64,000 nucleotides of DNA from Methanosalsum zhilinae DSM 4017 (GTDB lineage Archaea; Halobacteriota; Methanosarcinia; Methanosarcinales; Methanosarcinaceae). Numbering within the stretch: the first letter of the stretch is position 1; each line of letters opens with the position of its first letter. The position numbers and the translations under genes were made by a program. This document shows positions 55,064 through 64,000 of this stretch, piece by piece. The notes below the pieces were generated by a model. It had not been told where the DNA came from. It saw nothing but the letters and a program-made list of their open reading frames with translations, and did no database searches. The DNA lies in the NCBI RefSeq assembly GCF_000217995.1, contig NC_015676.1:536103-600102 (forward strand), read 5' to 3'.

Positions 55064-55448
55064 TAACCCCCCTGTGAGAACTGAACAATCTCTATTCTTC
55101 ACAGTCCCCGCTTTAATATTCTATTTCTTTTTCACATATTTCAAGGCTACTGTTTGCAACGATGCTTTTCATAGTTTAGAAGGCTGAGATCATAATTTTT
55201 TTCGAAGCAATAGTGTCATCTGATTGATATTTGCAAATAAACCGATACTTCATGAAAAAATACTTCATTTATAAAAACAGATATAAAGTAATCTTTTAAA
55301 ATAAAATTTAGATACATTTATATTGTAGTCTGTTTTATTTGTTGCATACTGTTAATAATTTCAAACCACAACCACATTTACACATGTTATAAAAAATGCT
55401 AATTCAATTAAATCGATTACATTTTTGAATTTAGGGAGATATTTTATA
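55064..55448. other. divergent promoter region, regulator / archaellin
   Basis: About 385 bases, very AT-rich, with no coding frame. For the archaellin side there are TATA-like elements at 55316-55324 (ATTTATATT) and 55387-55396 (TTATAAAAAA), and a GGGAGAT ribosome binding site at 55434-55440. The nearer TATA would give a leader of about 30 bases. Confidence 0.45.
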
Positions 55449-56492
55449 ATGAAAGCAAATCAGAAACTACAACTCAAAGGAGATGAACGTGCCCAGATTG
55501 GTATTGGCACCCTTATTATTTTCATCTCAATGGTTCTGGTAGCAGCAGTAGCGTCTGCTCTGCTGATAAAAACGTCAGGTATATTACAGCAAACGGCCTC
55601 ACAGACCGGCCAGGAAGCTACAAGAGAAGTATCATCTAATCTTCGAGTGGATCGGATTGAGGGTGAACGTGCTGCTTATCAAACTATTAGAATAAAATAT
55701 GATGAAGGTGAACAGATTGTTTTTGTTAATGAAACTACTGGAACAGAACAGGATAAGCCCAATATTAATTTAACAATTCCACGGGCCGGAATGGTTGAAT
55801 GGATATCCGAAATAGATAAAGACCTTAATATAACTTTTAATAATGTTCAGGGAATAACAGTAGATGCCTGGTATACTGATGGATTAGATGGTGGGATTCA
55901 AAATCTCCATGAAGATGAAGGCGGACTGATCATTCCTGCAGGATCTCATTTTGAATGTAGATTTGACAGGTCAACAAAAAACGATAGCTCTGATGGACAT
56001 GATCTATATGAGTTCTATATTGGAGGTAAGGGTCCAGGCCATATTAAGGTTGATGAAAAAACTGCGTTTGGGGATATCACTAAACTTCGTGTGTCTGTAT
56101 CATTGGGGCCAGGTAGTCAGGATGTAGATCTTTCCCAATTAATCATTTATCTCTCAGACGGCGCTAGAATGACCAGTGTTAGATATGATCATCTTGATGG
56201 TGGAGAATATTTCCACATACCAGACGGTGATTATTTCTCTGTGAGTCCGATAAGGATTAGAGATCGGAGTGAATTTAAGGCAACACAACCTGTTTTAAGG
56301 ACTGGTGATATAATGGAACTTGTAATTGACATGAGACATGTATTCCAAACACAGGATCCAGATTATCAGGGTATAGAACCCCGGTCTCAACTCTCATTCC
56401 AGATCAGACCAGAGGCTGGTTCTGTTGTGCCGTTTGAGATAAGTACTCCAGGTGCATATTTCGATAACAGGTATATTCTGTTGATGTACTGA
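55449..56492 (+). CDS. flaB: archaellin (archaeal flagellin)
   Basis: A 347-residue major filament protein. The N-terminus is a class III signal: a short charged leader ([15 protein letters not shown]) followed by the conserved hydrophobic helix [20 protein letters not shown], with prepilin-peptidase cleavage expected just before QIGIG. A coiled region [16 protein letters not shown]-like ([19 protein letters not shown]) follows, then a large beta-rich outer domain with several N-glycosylation sequons (NETTG, NLTIP, NITFN). At 347 residues it is longer than many archaellins. ATG 55449 has GGGAGAT upstream. A perfect 13-bp hairpin follows the stop. Confidence 0.94.
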
Positions 56493-56838: not shown

Positions 56839-58080
56839 ATGACTTATAAAAAGCATATACTCTTGTTGATCCTTGTTGTTTACCTATTTATTATCTTTAT
56901 ATCAAATCCTGTATATGCAGATGAGACTGAATCTGAATGGGTTAAAGTTGATGATTTCAGGTTATACTGGGGAGACAGTATCAAATTAAATAATCATACA
57001 ATAGAAGCCATTGAGTTTTCTGAACCCAGAAAAAGATATTCTAATGAAGATTATGTTATGATCTACATAACAGATAATTCCAGGCAATGGAATGCAATTT
57101 TGTCCAGAAACAATACACAGATGGATAACAATATTGTACTGGATGAACGATTTAAAGTCAATGTAACTGAAATAGTCACAGGTTTTAATATTACCACGCC
57201 ATATGCTGAATTTGAATTCTATGAAAAGGAAGAAGATGAAGAAGATATTGAATTTATCATGGATTCCTGGATTAATTCAACTATAGATTTTGATGCATCA
57301 GCAGGCCATTCGGTACATTTAGATGAGCGAATTTATATCAATGTTGATGTTAATAACTTGAAGGACATCCACTTTGAAGATGTTAAGGTAATCTCTTCCT
57401 ATCCGGATAATTTTATTTATGATCCAGATAAGGATATTGAATGGAATTTTGAACTAAAACCCAATGGTAAGAATACATTCAGTTATTCTTTAAAGTCTCT
57501 GAAGCCAGGAGAATTTACTATTCCCGGCTTTGAATTGAGATTAACTCATCTGGGAGTGACCTATCGTAAATACACTGATGATTTTGATATTGAAATCTAT
57601 GGTCCTTATCTGGAAATTGATAAATCTTTATCTTCAGATAGTGCAGAAAAAGGAGATATCCTTGATGTCAGTGTCAGTATCAGAAATAAAGGAAATCGTG
57701 CAGCAAATGTGAAATTTAAAGACGAGATCCCTGACTTTTTCAAATATGTAGATGGAGATACCAGAATAAATAAAGTTCTTCAACCATCCGGTGAACACTC
57801 CATTCAATATTCAGTAGAAGTCATTGAGAGTGGTTCATTGGTTATCCCCTCAGCTGAGGTTTTGGCAACTGATACCCGAGGCATTGAATATTTGTTTATA
57901 TCCGAACGAATTGGACTTGAAGTATCTAATGGGGATAGGCCCTATATAGAGGATGATAATGGCGAATATGGACATTCAGATGTTCCTGATGAACCGACAG
58001 TTGCTTATCCGGATGAGGCTGAAAAATCCGGGTTTTTGAAAGAGTTTATTAGAATAATTAAAAGCAGGTTAAATCTTTAA
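56839..58080 (+). CDS. secreted beta-sandwich protein in the archaellum locus (paralogue 1)
   Basis: A 413-residue protein with a signal peptide (ILLLILVVYLFIIFISNPVYA). An N-terminal domain follows (WVKVDDFRLYWGDSIKLNNH...), then two repeats resembling COG1361/DUF11 beta sandwiches, about residues 150-250 (SAGHSVHLDERIYINVDVNN) and 255-365 (YLEIDKSLSSDSAEKGDIL). The tail is acidic and ends in a short basic helix without a membrane anchor. It contains several N-glycosylation sequons. It resembles the later gene at 60880 in domain order and motifs. Placement among archaellum genes suggests a cell-surface role with the archaellum or S-layer; this is inferred. Confidence 0.8.
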   Translation: MTYKKHILLLILVVYLFIIFISNPVYADETESEWVKVDDFRLYWGDSIKLNNHTIEAIEFSEPRKRYSNEDYVMIYITDNSRQWNAILSRNNTQMDNNIVLDERFKVNVTEIVTGFNITTPYAEFEFYEKEEDEEDIEFIMDSWINSTIDFDASAGHSVHLDERIYINVDVNNLKDIHFEDVKVISSYPDNFIYDPDKDIEWNFELKPNGKNTFSYSLKSLKPGEFTIPGFELRLTHLGVTYRKYTDDFDIEIYGPYLEIDKSLSSDSAEKGDILDVSVSIRNKGNRAANVKFKDEIPDFFKYVDGDTRINKVLQPSGEHSIQYSVEVIESGSLVIPSAEVLATDTRGIEYLFISERIGLEVSNGDRPYIEDDNGEYGHSDVPDEPTVAYPDEAEKSGFLKEFIRIIKSRLNL

Positions 58081-58194
58081 ATATTGCATCTATCAACATA
58101 ACATTTATATTAATCAAACATAGTTTTAAAATAATTAATATTAATTAAATTAAGATGTTCTCCCTATTTAATCAATAGTAGAGGTTTGTTTCCA

Positions 58195-60840
58195 ATGGTT
58201 AATTCATCAAACAATAATCACAAAAAAGGTTCATACGAAGACTATGATCAAAATCCAGATGAAGGACTACCCTGGGAGAATAAAGTTAATAAGGATCAAA
58301 GAAACGATAAGGCTATTTCATTAACAAATGCATTTGATGATATACCATTAGAGGAAGCACCACTGGAGTTTGGATCAAAAACAGTAGATAATTCAACTGA
58401 TGAAGATGTAGAATTGCCATCACCACCATTTTTAGATGATATACCTGACCTTTCCCAGATAAATGCAGAGGTCGAACCTGATATTCTGGAAAAGAAAGTT
58501 AAGGAAAGCGAATTTCAGCACTTTGAACATATAAGGTCTGATGCAGAATCTGCTATGATTTCTGAACTGGACAAAAATAAGTTCCCTGAGATTGATCCTG
58601 AAACTGCTCAATGGGCTGATAACCCGGGAGCAAAAGATGAGTTTGAGAATGTTTTCCAAATTGCCGATAATAATCCAGCGATGATCAATAAAAATGCTAA
58701 TTTTGAGGGCTTATCTGAGAATTCGGCTTTATCAGCTGGAAGGAAAGCAACTGATAAAGTTGATCCAAATGAGACCATTGCAAAAATCAAAGACAGATTA
58801 CTGAAAAATCATGAAAAATTACAGAGTCTCGATTATAATTATTCTCTGGATGAATCAGATGATGAATTAAAACCTGATACTGACAGGAATGAAGAGGCTG
58901 ATGATATTCTGGATATGGATTCTCCTAAACAGTATCATGAATCATTTAATAAGACATCAGAACAGGAAAGCAAGATGTTAAATAAGTCCAATGACTCTCT
59001 GGCCGGGAACGAAAAGGATGACATTTCTTTTCATAAAGTTCCAGATTCTGGAAGTATCAATCCGGAAAAATTGCCTGAAGATCCTGCTGATCAATATAAT
59101 AAGGCATTCATTGAAGCTATTGACTCATCTGGAAATAATCTGGACCAGAACCAATCTGAAACTAATAATAGTGCTACCAGGGGAACTTCAACATCACCTA
59201 ACCTGTTTCCAGGTGAACATTTTTCGGGTAATTTTAATGAAAAAAAGTCCCAATTCAATGAAGATAACCTTTTTCAACAGGACAGTAAGCAAAGTGGAGT
59301 AGCTGCTGGTTCAGCCGGAAAAATAGGTTCATTTTTCAAAAAGATTGTTAAGAGCATAAAAGGTGGGGGTAATCTTATTGAAAGAATGGATGAAATAAGC
59401 CTGGACCTGGCTTCAACCCGCAAGGATGATGATAAGCAGGATAGAGATCTGTCTGAATCTCTATTTGATGATGAACCTGATTTTTTCAACAGTCCATTCA
59501 GTCAGAAAAAGCCGGATAATAATGTGGCTGAAAATGTGGATTCTTATGTTCAAGCATCTGAAAAAACCGAGAATAGGCCAAAAAAAAGTCTCCTTGATGC
59601 TTCTTTAGATGATATCAGAAATGTGTACAATATTCCAGAAGAATCGATTTCAGATACTCAAATCCAGGCTTTTATCCAGGGAGCTAAGGAATTGATACCT
59701 GATATTGCCACAGAAGATATAAAACACGATAATATTTCGGAATCTGTTTCATCAATAAAATCTTGTAATTCTGATATATTTTCCAGTCCAGAGGGGTCCG
59801 TGGCTTTTGAGAATAAGTCATCTCTTGATGAAACGTCAGAAAGAAAGATGTCAGAAAGAGAGATTGATGAAATTAAACGGGAGATACAGGCTCTGTCTTC
59901 ATCCATATCATCCTTTGAAAATTTACCTGATAATCTTCGATCCTTCCAGGAAGATCTGATTTCAACAGTTGCCAGTGAAGTTGAGATTGCTAATAATAGA
60001 ACCGAAGAACTTGAAAATCAGCTGAGAAACCTGGTGAAAATGATAGAATCTTTTTCTATTGATCATAATAACACACAACAAAATATTTTGAATATGAAAA
60101 AAGAACTGGCTGATTATACTAATTCTTATAATGAGCTGGAGGGGGTAGTACACAACATAGAACTGGAAAATAAATCTAATTATGAAATGCTGAATGAAAA
60201 AGTATCAAAGATAGATCAACTTGACGGGATTGAATCAATTGTTCATGGTCTGGAGGCTAGTCAGGAAAATGTAAATGAGTCTCTGGAAGCAATCGGAACG
60301 AGCATATCTACATTACTCAATGACCTATCTGAAGTCCATAGCTTGAATGAACAACTCAGGTCCCAGGTTGAGAATGATATAACCACGGTTTACCAGGAAA
60401 TGGGGCAGCTAACCAGATATTTTGAAACTGAAATAAAAAAAATACGGGCAAGAAACTTATCTTCAGGTTCATCTTCAATGGAGCAGAATGTATATTTAAG
60501 TCATATCGAAAAAAATTCTGTAAATATCAAACTGTGCATGGAATGGCTTGAATTCTTGCTGGAAATTGTGGGGAAAAACAATATTCCGGACATATTATCC
60601 TATTATGTTGAATTGGGATGGATAAGTGAAGAAGTTCGCCTTGAACTTTTAAGATATGCAGATGGAATTAACTATTTTGCAGATGGAGTGACCTGGAAGC
60701 TTTCACCGGATGACCATGTAAAATCAATATGGTTCATTGAAAGACTGGCAGGATTGAATATCGACAAAAATATGCTTACCATCATTGACAGAGACGTTGC
60801 AAATATAAAGCAAGGTATAAGAATGCACAACTCATTTTGA
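58195..60840 (+). CDS. giant FlaD/FlaE-domain archaellum accessory protein
   Basis: An 881-residue protein. The first 560 or so residues are acidic, Asn/Asp/Ser-rich and probably disordered, with repeated short acidic-aromatic motifs (DDIPLEEAPLEFG, FLDDIPDLS, LFDDEPDFFNSPF) and one basic patch (GSFFKKIVKSIKGGGNLIER, near 380). Residues of about 560-760 form a coiled coil. The last 100 residues are a FlaD/E domain (PF04659): LEFLLEIVGKNNIPDILSYY, VELGWISEEVRLELLRYADG and DHVKSIWFIERLAGLNID. FlaD/E proteins are cytosolic parts of the motor that link to the chemotaxis adaptor. Usual members have about 150-500 residues. ATG 58195 follows AGAGG. Confidence 0.88.
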   Translation: MVNSSNNNHKKGSYEDYDQNPDEGLPWENKVNKDQRNDKAISLTNAFDDIPLEEAPLEFGSKTVDNSTDEDVELPSPPFLDDIPDLSQINAEVEPDILEKKVKESEFQHFEHIRSDAESAMISELDKNKFPEIDPETAQWADNPGAKDEFENVFQIADNNPAMINKNANFEGLSENSALSAGRKATDKVDPNETIAKIKDRLLKNHEKLQSLDYNYSLDESDDELKPDTDRNEEADDILDMDSPKQYHESFNKTSEQESKMLNKSNDSLAGNEKDDISFHKVPDSGSINPEKLPEDPADQYNKAFIEAIDSSGNNLDQNQSETNNSATRGTSTSPNLFPGEHFSGNFNEKKSQFNEDNLFQQDSKQSGVAAGSAGKIGSFFKKIVKSIKGGGNLIERMDEISLDLASTRKDDDKQDRDLSESLFDDEPDFFNSPFSQKKPDNNVAENVDSYVQASEKTENRPKKSLLDASLDDIRNVYNIPEESISDTQIQAFIQGAKELIPDIATEDIKHDNISESVSSIKSCNSDIFSSPEGSVAFENKSSLDETSERKMSEREIDEIKREIQALSSSISSFENLPDNLRSFQEDLISTVASEVEIANNRTEELENQLRNLVKMIESFSIDHNNTQQNILNMKKELADYTNSYNELEGVVHNIELENKSNYEMLNEKVSKIDQLDGIESIVHGLEASQENVNESLEAIGTSISTLLNDLSEVHSLNEQLRSQVENDITTVYQEMGQLTRYFETEIKKIRARNLSSGSSSMEQNVYLSHIEKNSVNIKLCMEWLEFLLEIVGKNNIPDILSYYVELGWISEEVRLELLRYADGINYFADGVTWKLSPDDHVKSIWFIERLAGLNIDKNMLTIIDRDVANIKQGIRMHNSF

Positions 60841-60879
60841 TGATAACATTTAAAACCTTTGTATACATTAATTCTCCTG

Positions 60880-62634
60880 ATGCATCTTAAATATGGGTTA
60901 ATCTTATTTTTGTTCATCATTATTGTGGCCGGTGTTACATCAACTGCTACGGCTAAAGACCACAAGTATGAAGAGATGTGGGTCTATTATGGGAATTTTG
61001 ATATAAATGTCAATGATAAAGTGAAGATTGAGGAGCACACTATAAGGGTTCATAGTATTGATGAAGATTCACCCTCCTCAATCCTGCTTCATTATAAAAA
61101 CGATATTTTTAAACAGGCTTATGTTGTTGATACTGAGCTAAACAATTATATTGTAATTGAAGGGGACTTAAAGGTTAAAATTGAAAGTATATCAAAGGAT
61201 TACCTATCAGTTGAGACTTCTGTGCGTACATTGGAACCTACATGGGTCCTACTGGATGAAAAAGATATGCGAATATCTGATAAAATGCAGCTAAATGACT
61301 TTTCAATAACACTTGATGATTCAACCGGTGATTCCTATCAATTTATAGTAGAATACCAGGACTCTTCTGAATATATTGATCTGAACTCCAATGATTCAAA
61401 AACCCTGTATAACGATTTTTTGATTGAAATCAGTAAAAAAGATTCTGAAAAAACAGTGAATGTAAAATTATATCAAAATCCCATCCCATCAATTGATCTG
61501 TATTTTGAAGGCCTAGAAAGATCCTATTCTCCAGGTGAAAATATTTTTTATGAACTTATCATTGAAAATACAGGTGATGTTCCACTAAGGAATATATGTG
61601 CCCAGATCAAAACGAATGGGGGTGATGAAAAATCCATTATGATTTCAACTCTGTTGCCATCTGAATCTTTTAAAGAAAAATTAAACATTGAAGCATCTTT
61701 TGAACCAGAAGGATATACAATAGATATTGAAGGTGAAGTTTTAGCTTATACTCATGATAGAAAGGAGCACCACAGTTCAGATTCTGTTTCTATAAATGTT
61801 CCTGGGTATATGAGTATTGCTAAGAGAGTTCAGCCATCAGAGACTACACTAGAGAATTCTGAATTTGAGGTAACTCTTGATATTAGTAATATGGCAAGTG
61901 ATGCAAAAAAGATTACTGTCATTGACCAGATACCTAACGGGTTCATACAAATGGATAATAGCGAAATGAAGTGGGATGTTGAAGTTGGTCCAGGGACCAC
62001 TAAAAACATAACTTATACTATATTATCCATGAATCCCGGTGATTATGATATGGGATCTGCTGCTATTGAATGGAGAGATGGTAATACAGATTATAGAGTA
62101 AAATCGAATAATCCAGGTGTAACGATCTACGGTGCAGATCTGGATGTTGACAGATATTTAAGTAAGGATGATATACACCTGGACGAATACCTAGATGTTA
62201 ACTTCAATATAATGAATAAAGGAAACGAAAATGCGTACGTCAAGATAAATGATACCGTTCCTGAGGACATGGAGCTGGTGTATGGAGATACTTCCTGGAA
62301 TGGTACTGTATCTGCAGGTGAAGAATATAAGTTTTCATATGTTCTAAAGCCTCTTAGTGCCGGTAAATTTGATATTTCATCACTGGAAATTCGCTATTCA
62401 GATGCCAGTGGCCATGAAAATACTATTTATTTACAGGAACTTGAGTTCAATGTAAATGATTATCAAAAAGAAGGCCAGATAAAATCTCCGGAGTCAGATC
62501 ATCCTGAATCTTTAGCATCTATTGGCCGATGGAATACAATAAGTTTTTTAACTTTATCGTTTATATTTCTTTTAGCTCTGATATCGATGGTACCGATTTG
62601 TGGATATATATTCATCAATGAAAGGAAAAAATAA
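60880..62634 (+). CDS. membrane-anchored beta-sandwich protein in the archaellum locus (paralogue 2)
   Basis: A 584-residue protein. It has a signal peptide (YGLILFLFIIIVAGVTSTATA), an N-terminal domain like that of the 56839 gene (MWVYYGNFDINVNDKVKIEE), then three or more beta-sandwich repeats, the last reading DLDVDRYLSKDDIHLDEYLD. One C-terminal membrane helix (FLTLSFIFLLALISMVPICG) ends in a short basic tail, so the bulk lies outside the cell. The repeats closely match its paralogue. No ribosome binding site is visible before ATG 60880, and a TATA-like CATTTAAAA lies 30 bases upstream, so the mRNA may be leaderless. Function unknown. Confidence 0.8.
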   Translation: MHLKYGLILFLFIIIVAGVTSTATAKDHKYEEMWVYYGNFDINVNDKVKIEEHTIRVHSIDEDSPSSILLHYKNDIFKQAYVVDTELNNYIVIEGDLKVKIESISKDYLSVETSVRTLEPTWVLLDEKDMRISDKMQLNDFSITLDDSTGDSYQFIVEYQDSSEYIDLNSNDSKTLYNDFLIEISKKDSEKTVNVKLYQNPIPSIDLYFEGLERSYSPGENIFYELIIENTGDVPLRNICAQIKTNGGDEKSIMISTLLPSESFKEKLNIEASFEPEGYTIDIEGEVLAYTHDRKEHHSSDSVSINVPGYMSIAKRVQPSETTLENSEFEVTLDISNMASDAKKITVIDQIPNGFIQMDNSEMKWDVEVGPGTTKNITYTILSMNPGDYDMGSAAIEWRDGNTDYRVKSNNPGVTIYGADLDVDRYLSKDDIHLDEYLDVNFNIMNKGNENAYVKINDTVPEDMELVYGDTSWNGTVSAGEEYKFSYVLKPLSAGKFDISSLEIRYSDASGHENTIYLQELEFNVNDYQKEGQIKSPESDHPESLASIGRWNTISFLTLSFIFLLALISMVPICGYIFINERKK

Positions 62635-63186: not shown

Positions 63187-64000
63187 ATGGTTAATCTGAA
63201 AGATAAATTAAGTTCATTGAAATCAATTGTCAGCAAAGACGATGCCTCATCATCACCATCACAATCTGCAAACAATGATCCATTTGGATCAGACACAGAT
63301 CCTTTTGCTTCAGGTCCTCCAGGATTTGATTCTGTGCCAGATCTAACAAATGGAGGTGGGGGTGCTCCAGATTTTGAAGGCTTACCGGACTTTAATCAAT
63401 TCCCACCATCAGCTCCTGGTGCTAATGGTTTTGGTGCTGAATCTTCAGGCACACCGGGTCAGCAGGCAAATAGTTCAAACCCCAAACAGGTTGAGGAAAA
63501 TAAGGATCGTATCAATTCTCTTGAAAAGAAGCTTTCCAAATTTGAAATGAGCTTCAATATGATGGAAAGGGAAAATAAGGAAATTAAAGAGACTGTAACC
63601 AAAATAGATCAGAGTGTAATTGAACTATTATCCCTATATGAGATTGTATCCAATCAGGTAAATCCGTTTGTTGGTGAAAATGAAAGTGGAAGAGACACTA
63701 TTGAGAGATTTGACAAGGCTGAGAAAAGAATAAATGAAGTTGGTGATATGACCGTCTCTCTTAAGAATGATGTAGCTTCTCTTCAAAACCAGCTGGAAAA
63801 TATGGGAATGACTCAGGATACTGAGGACAAAATTTCTGAGATAGAGGAAAAACTGGATGCCTTCTCTCAGGCTCTGGAAATGCTGAATGAGAATTTTGAA
63901 AACATCTCTTCCCAGCTGGACAGTTTCAATGAAAGGACTGAACAGAATGAAATAATCATTTCAGATCTCCAGGATGCCAATTCTGTTATCATCGAAAGAC
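63187..64000 (+). CDS. flaC: FlaC-like archaellum accessory protein (3' truncated)
   Basis: 271 codons before the window ends. A short amphipathic start (MVNLKDKLSSLKSIVSKDD) leads into a Pro/Gly/Phe-rich low-complexity segment with repeated acidic-aromatic motifs (NDPFGSDTDPFASG, PDFEGLPDFNQFP). A coiled coil comes next, then the FlaC signature DQSVIELLSLYEIVSNQVNP followed by FVG, then more coiled coil. FlaC works with FlaD/E at the cytosolic motor and joins it to chemotaxis signalling. ATG 63187 is preceded by GTGGG. The low-complexity part resembles that of the giant FlaD/E protein. Confidence 0.85.
   Translation, partial: MVNLKDKLSSLKSIVSKDDASSSPSQSANNDPFGSDTDPFASGPPGFDSVPDLTNGGGGAPDFEGLPDFNQFPPSAPGANGFGAESSGTPGQQANSSNPKQVEENKDRINSLEKKLSKFEMSFNMMERENKEIKETVTKIDQSVIELLSLYEIVSNQVNPFVGENESGRDTIERFDKAEKRINEVGDMTVSLKNDVASLQNQLENMGMTQDTEDKISEIEEKLDAFSQALEMLNENFENISSQLDSFNERTEQNEIIISDLQDANSVIIER

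Follow-up and report, generated by a model that had tools for sequence, protein, structure and literature searches.

Methanosalsum zhilinae encodes a giant ArlD/E-type (FlaD/E) protein that is ordinary in its domain but unusual in its architecture, comprising a conserved, modular and predicted disordered arm on an ArlD/E subunit. The gene lies at 58195..60840 on the forward strand of the window (the whole 64,000-nucleotide stretch that was analysed) and forms a single intact reading frame of 881 aa from an ATG at 58195, or 884 aa from a TTG at 58186. We propose, with about an even chance of being right, that this protein is a switch or cytosolic-ring subunit of the archaellum, that its long arm is a motif-bearing tether with a basic helix on the membrane and motifs that dock partners, and that the window copy provides an alternative ring module for a single motor.

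Pfam places Arch_fla_DE (PF04659) at residues 767-856 (60484..60753, + strand) with an E value of 2.4e-27 and 95.1 bits against a curated cut-off of 21. In an AlphaFold2 model based on a 29-row alignment of the window copy and loci of relatives, the residue numbers of which start at window position 58198 (ORF numbering is four higher), pLDDT is below 50 for 506 of 880 residues, all except approximately 22 of which precede residue 553; such low values are not proof of disorder because the alignment is shallow. Long helices at model residues 553-749 connect this arm to FlaD/E and correspond to a long coiled coil (59854..60444, +; aa 557-753), while the FlaD/E blocks at 771-850 reach pLDDT 82-92 and the last helix 62-64. 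The first 554 residues comprise 21.5% D+E with a net charge of -0.106 per residue. Pfam, model and composition together thus confirm the original prediction of a long disordered acidic region followed by a coiled coil and FlaD/E, with the first ∼550 residues predicted to be disordered. Within the arm, a short helix is predicted with a pLDDT of about 80 at DPNETIAKIKDRLLKN (58762..58809, +; aa 193-208), and a similar stretch is present in the paralogous giant of the same genome (L006). FlaC (PF05377) is not among the Pfam matches of the window giant, and the coiled coils of several orthologues match it only weakly (for example, 3.5e-8 in G065), several below the cut-off; in G000 there is a third PF05377 match. 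The giant has no PDB sequence match at 0.01, and a re-examination of Foldseek's own list recovered no chain with Z of at least 5 among the 558 aligned to the model.

Length is a family trait. PF04659 matches occur in 66 of 111 family genomes, usually as one long frame and one of ∼370-490 aa, and the 35 Methanosarcinaceae giants that we collected span 463-1056 aa (median 884). This set comprises 28 proteins from 39 loci and seven from the window and family genomes; loci with a cut 5' end (L084, L088, L095, L101, L102), fragments (L109, L111, L112) and Natronococcus proteins (L113-L115) were left out, and L077, L079 and L093 were retained despite one end being cut. The suspicion attached to the original prediction, that orthologues of normal length without a low-complexity region would expose a local expansion, is therefore ruled out by giant orthologues across these relatives. 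Arm length, counted by leaving off the last 330 residues, ranges from 133 to 726, and the Methanohalophilus arm has only 133-148 residues, indicating that most of the length is dispensable in that genus. Conserved acidity was also considered as a functional feature and rejected, since mean arm D+E differs between genera, being lowest in Methanomethylovorans (12%) and highest in Methanohalobium (25%), two genera that differ in salt demand.

These variable properties are what would be expected of a passive spacer, an entropic linker or brush for which length matters and motifs do not, and which is acidic because its host lives in brine. A comparison of the window copy with a copy from a metagenome-assembled genome (L077) points the same way, with dN/dS of 0.50 in the arm, 0.29 in the coiled coil and 0.03 in FlaD/E. 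We nevertheless consider a spacer unlikely given the ordered recurring modules and the two near-invariant helix positions described below; the PDL module, with dN/dS of 0.05 measured over only 18 codons, also speaks against it (the basic helix gives 0.25 over 35 codons). Neutral drift, in which a disordered extension without function is tolerated in the lineage, could likewise account for the low arm identity between genera and the arm dN/dS of 0.50. It is scarcely credible, however, given that dN/dS is still below 1 and that the arm is found in all six named genera and a further group sampled, with its modules mostly in order.

The modules that we see in the arm usually run in the order LPWE near the N-terminus, AFxDIPxEE, FxD[VL]PDL, PLFEP and a basic helix ending in LI[ED]RM. 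In the window copy they include LPWENK (58267..58284, +; aa 28-33), which is found as an MSELPWENKK-like N-terminus in most orthologues and has P29 and W30 near-invariant across the 29 alignment rows, the aligned module NAFDDIPLEEAP with the AF.[DE].P pattern (58327..58362, +; aa 48-59), and PFLDDIPDLSQI with a motif common to the giant and FlaC/E (58426..58461, +; aa 81-92). This copy also carries the motif FDDEPDFF (59464..59487, +; aa 427-434). Comparing each of the 35 arms with shuffles of itself, PW[EDG] occurs in 30 giants (1.3 after shuffling), PLFE in 23 (0.4), the helix signature in 30 (1.0), AF.[DE].P in 13 (1.0) and F.{1,3}[VLI]PD[LI], an F-anchored PDL motif, in 13 (0.4), and the modules present keep the stated order in 30 against 5.3 expected; these counts describe rather than test because the patterns were written after the alignment was read. 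[DNSE]PF is found 200 times across the arms against 33.4 in shuffles, and V.P.E is hardly enriched (82 vs. 60.9).

The FlaC/E partner shares part of this vocabulary. The gene at 63187, originally described as FlaC-like, does have a FlaC part but encodes a FlaC-FlaD/E fusion of 421 aa that extends beyond the window end, with its 5' part at 63187..63999 (+). It carries an N-terminal basic helix, MVNLKDKLSSLKSIVSK (63187..63237, +), and the motif GFDSVPDL (63322..63345, +). Among 23 FlaC/E proteins, a count that includes L123, a mis-sorted short giant that we removed for helix scores and lengths, [VLIA]PD[LI] is present in 13 (0.3 expected from shuffles) and [DNSE]PF in 21 (4.3 expected); the remaining 22 proteins are 374-472 aa in size. 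The predicted sharing of short acidic-aromatic motifs by two partner proteins accordingly stands, in the form of PDL and xPF motifs that exceed shuffled expectation in both. Every Methanohalobium giant has three F-anchored PDL motifs and every FlaC/E of that genus has two, and Methanohalophilus and Methanococcoides have none in either protein (none in 2/2 and 7/7 giants, respectively; 1/4 giant rows outside the six named genera has one). This joint absence is suggestive only as a sign of coevolution, and may be a single event because the giants of Methanococcoides and Methanohalophilus fall into one group of the tree (support 82/88).

A tree of the last 125 residues separates the giants from the FlaC/E proteins (support 100/100). 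In it, the three Methanosalsum copies of the window type cluster together; the tree fixes neither their position within the giants nor whether the window copy arose by duplication within Methanosalsum or in another way. Giants resemble FlaC/E (ArlCE) fusions in having a coiled coil and FlaD/E domain, a basic helix and the PDL and xPF motifs, and differ in belonging to a separate clade and in the position of the helix, which in FlaC/E is at the extreme N-terminus. Given the weak FlaC matches in the coiled coils of several giants, the two types probably derive from one ancestral plan.

Motifs present in both partners invite a further explanation, developed from the condensate-like platform of the original prediction, in which multivalent contacts made by the giant and FlaC/E would create a phase-separated cytosolic platform at the pole that gathers motors and chemotaxis proteins. 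The xPF-rich giants of Methanolobus (9-16 copies of [DNSE]PF each) and Methanomethylovorans (5-10) would suit such a condensate, as would Haloferax FlaD-GFP foci, which are dynamic and move within the polar region (PMC6509185). The window copy has [DNSE]PF once, however, and its motifs are few and distinct. The repeats first described as DDxPxF-like are indeed in excess over shuffles, by patterns drawn up after the sequence was inspected (F.?DD.P, 3 vs. 0.04 expected; plain DD.P, 3 vs. 0.39, P=0.007), but number only three and continue differently (DDIPLE, DDIPDL, DDEPDF). In addition, the haloarchaea-like FlaC/E proteins examined have another layout, and titles and abstract openings among the literature matches listed do not link archaella to disorder or phase separation. 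We therefore regard a condensate as unlikely; the sequence of the window copy suggests a tether whose docking sites are separate rather than a polymer of repeated stickers. Eukaryotic endocytic adaptors likewise have a disordered arm with DPF/NPF repeats near a membrane, a likeness in short P-F motifs that we draw by analogy only.

The arm contains a candidate membrane-binding element absent from the original prediction, a basic amphipathic helix, KIGSFFKKIVKSIKGGGNLIERM (59320..59388, +; aa 379-401), modelled as a helix at low confidence (block pLDDT 48-64) and with L397 and M401 near-invariant in alignments. By a lipid-binding score with a cut-off of D>1.34, the window helix has a D of 2.24, matched by 2 of 100 shuffles. 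The cut-off is exceeded in 34/35 giants, although the score is weak in several (shuffles match it 34 times in 100 for L094, 22 for L087 and L096, and 18 for L110), and in L006 and L094 the highest score falls on an 18-mer other than the aligned helix. The N-termini of 19/22 FlaC/E proteins also exceed it, the window's own FlaC/E falling below with a D of 0.99. No 19-mer with KD of at least 1.5, our measure of a transmembrane helix, is found in the giants (0/35) or the Methanosarcinaceae FlaC/E (0/22). Because FlaC/E usually combines PDL/xPF motifs with a basic helix at its N-terminus, the giant and FlaC/E might both attach to the membrane and recognise one or more common partners.

FlaC/E proteins of other families differ in this respect, with 15 of 29 having a hydrophobic, transmembrane-like 19-mer (KD of at least 1.5) near the N-terminus, upstream of FlaC; in at least one of the 15 (L148) the hydrophobic stretch perhaps precedes the true start. 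The 29 FlaC-bearing frames come from 33 loci, four of which gave none, and represent the best PF05377 matches plus six hand-picked loci rather than a random sample; all are from outside the Methanosarcinaceae and nearly all are haloarchaea-like by composition, with related strains that are not independent. Many haloarchaea-like FlaC/E proteins (L141-L170, L057-L072) have a hydrophobic stretch or a short N-terminus like MLLSIIGNILG followed by an acidic stretch. The haloarchaea-like proteins examined place FlaC first, then the acidic stretch and then FlaD/E, unlike the giant. A review describes ArlCDE as having no transmembrane stretch, and the titles, abstract openings and some passages of the literature matches listed contain nothing on such membrane anchors or on disorder in ArlCDE.

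The M. zhilinae genome (one contig of 2,138,444 bases) has four PF04659 genes, namely the window giant and the FlaC-FlaD/E fusion downstream of it, a second giant of 911 aa (L006) located next to genes for an A-type ATPase and pilin-like proteins, and another FlaC/E within the operon FlaC/E-F-G-H-I-J, in which we take the genes to be FlaF-J from their order and sequence. A search of the genome with FlaH recovered itself at 1e-148 and all other matches at 4e-13 or weaker. With one strong FlaH for two giants and two FlaC/E proteins, the genome seemingly encodes one motor and two ring modules. In a sister genome (G072, a 98% complete draft) the arl operon goes from FlaF directly to the next conserved gene without FlaC/E, and the sole PF05377 match lies in a window-type locus, suggesting that the window-type module can probably serve the motor alone. 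Among 20 loci compared, the window arrangement was found only in Methanosalsum (L037; partly L039). An archaellin-like protein of 355 aa (55425..56492, +; PF01917, E 3.6e-27) is encoded upstream in the same cluster.

Other genes in these regions were also noted. On either side of the giant is a gene for an apparently secreted protein with BatD/DUF11 domains (56839-58080 and 60859-62634), both of which are kept in G072, and a ComEC-like protein of 304 aa with a metallo-beta-lactamase fold is encoded within the archaellin cluster (L005 10732-11646, -). FlaI, the archaellum ATPase, is a 1165-aa ORF with a long intein-looking insertion (L007 2738-6235, -), and G072 has a relative that matches along the whole length (59% identity over 1182 columns). 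By eye, an MCM-like ORF seemingly starts inside an intein remnant (L176 9902-11059, -).

In several genera the giant gene heads six pilin-like genes, so that it could instead be a subunit of a type IV pilus-like system. This synteny, with DUF7287/7288/7261-like/7266/7289 genes, is found in Methanosalsum, Methanococcoides, Methanohalobium, Methanohalophilus and further groups; the paralogous L006 giant overlaps the first pilin-like gene by 11 bases, and DUF7288 occurs in 61/111 family genomes, largely of the same genera as the giant. The six genes following that paralogue (L006 3838-8594, -) encode DUF7287, DUF7288, DUF7261-like, DUF7266, DUF7289 and DUF7289/7308 proteins. Genomes without FlaH decide against the pilus. 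Six of 16 chosen genomes have no FlaH match at 1e-20 (G022, G031, G034, G036, G037, G038), and in these the giant is reduced to C-terminal remnants of 34-55 residues (G022, G034, G038), broken into three pieces in different frames (G036) or undetected (G031), while the atp and pilin-like genes beside broken or undetected giants still match at nearly full length. The exception is G037, which retains an intact giant of 478 aa. Conversely, strong FlaH matches (E below 1e-80) occur in eight genomes, seven of which have a giant-type gene; in the eighth, G003, PF04659 is represented by a single gene of 441 aa. Two further genomes, G074 and G006, show nothing closer to FlaH than matches of 27-30% identity, with no PF04659 match in the former and two weak ones in the latter. 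Loss or decay of the giant in five of six FlaH-less genomes while its neighbours survive argues that it serves the archaellum, by few independent events as the losses are confined to two genera. None of these pilin-like genes is present in the flanking sequence examined for five loci of Methanolobus, two of Methanomethylovorans (another is cut off by a contig edge) and two of Methanococcoides (L055 and L056). A pilus function is thus largely refuted and very improbable.

In Haloferax, ArlCDE interacts with CheF and ArlH, as stated in a review (PMC8978795). CheA, CheW and MCP genes are located at 621-626 kb, ∼21 kb beyond the window end, and Pfam searches did not find the CheF family in this genome. 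CheF matches occur in 20 of 111 family genomes. Ten of these belong to g13, and within those ten PF04659 is limited to a weak match in a 222-aa frame of G095. The idea that the giant stands in for a missing CheF was not adopted, and is weakened by a 197-aa ORF close to the che genes that resembles CheF weakly (E 0.037) and by the co-occurrence of CheF and a giant in G017 and G033; Methanolobus and Methanomethylovorans also have weak CheF matches. Upstream of the che genes (L175 2854-9080) this ORF is accompanied by genes for a V4R protein that includes PPPFEDI and VPWNE, a KaiC-like ATPase with IDIDDLSELEEIVK at its end and an acidic coiled-coil protein of 558 aa; certain stretches among these proteins look like the giant's motifs, by likeness only.

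Like ArlD/ArlE (PF04659) of other Euryarchaeota, such as Haloferax volcanii ArlD, the giant has a FlaD/E domain and a FlaC/E partner and is mostly lost with the archaellum, and it differs in its N-terminal disordered arm of ∼550 residues, ordered modules and basic helix. In Haloferax, FlaD-GFP localises to foci at the pole, and archaella are generally missing from cells that have no flaD (PMC6509185). For the tether that we favour, we predict that the C-terminal FlaD/E domain and coiled coil would assemble with FlaC/E around the FlaH-FlaI motor, that the disordered arm would act as a tether with its basic amphipathic helix touching the inner membrane face, and that the separate motifs LPWE, AFxDIPxEE, FxDxPDL and PLFEP would dock other cytosolic partners. 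The giant and FlaC/E would together hold and position the ring, and in Methanosalsum, the only genus in which it is seen, the window copy and its own FlaC/E would form an alternative ring module for the single FlaF-J motor.

By analogy, such a ring would resemble that of ArlX (FlaX) in Crenarchaeota, which surrounds FlaH/FlaI and is attached to the membrane. ArlX has a transmembrane helix, and FlaC/E proteins from outside the Methanosarcinaceae frequently have a hydrophobic stretch at the N-terminus; none of the 35 giants has a 19-mer with KD of at least 1.5. We tentatively extend our proposal, though we doubt that it will hold in full, to a euryarchaeal ArlCDE ring with its own overlooked membrane anchors, namely an N-terminal helix resembling a transmembrane segment in many of the haloarchaea-like FlaC/E proteins, and basic amphipathic helices in Methanosarcinaceae FlaC/E and giant FlaD. 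The giant arm would then be a membrane-pinned, motif-bearing organiser with the role for the motor that has been proposed for the polar cap, and Methanosalsum would be able to swap two ring modules on one motor. The arm may in this way help to keep the inner ring of the motor in place, and the conserved helices and motifs supply specific candidates, open to deletion, for the ring's membrane anchor and partner docking sites.
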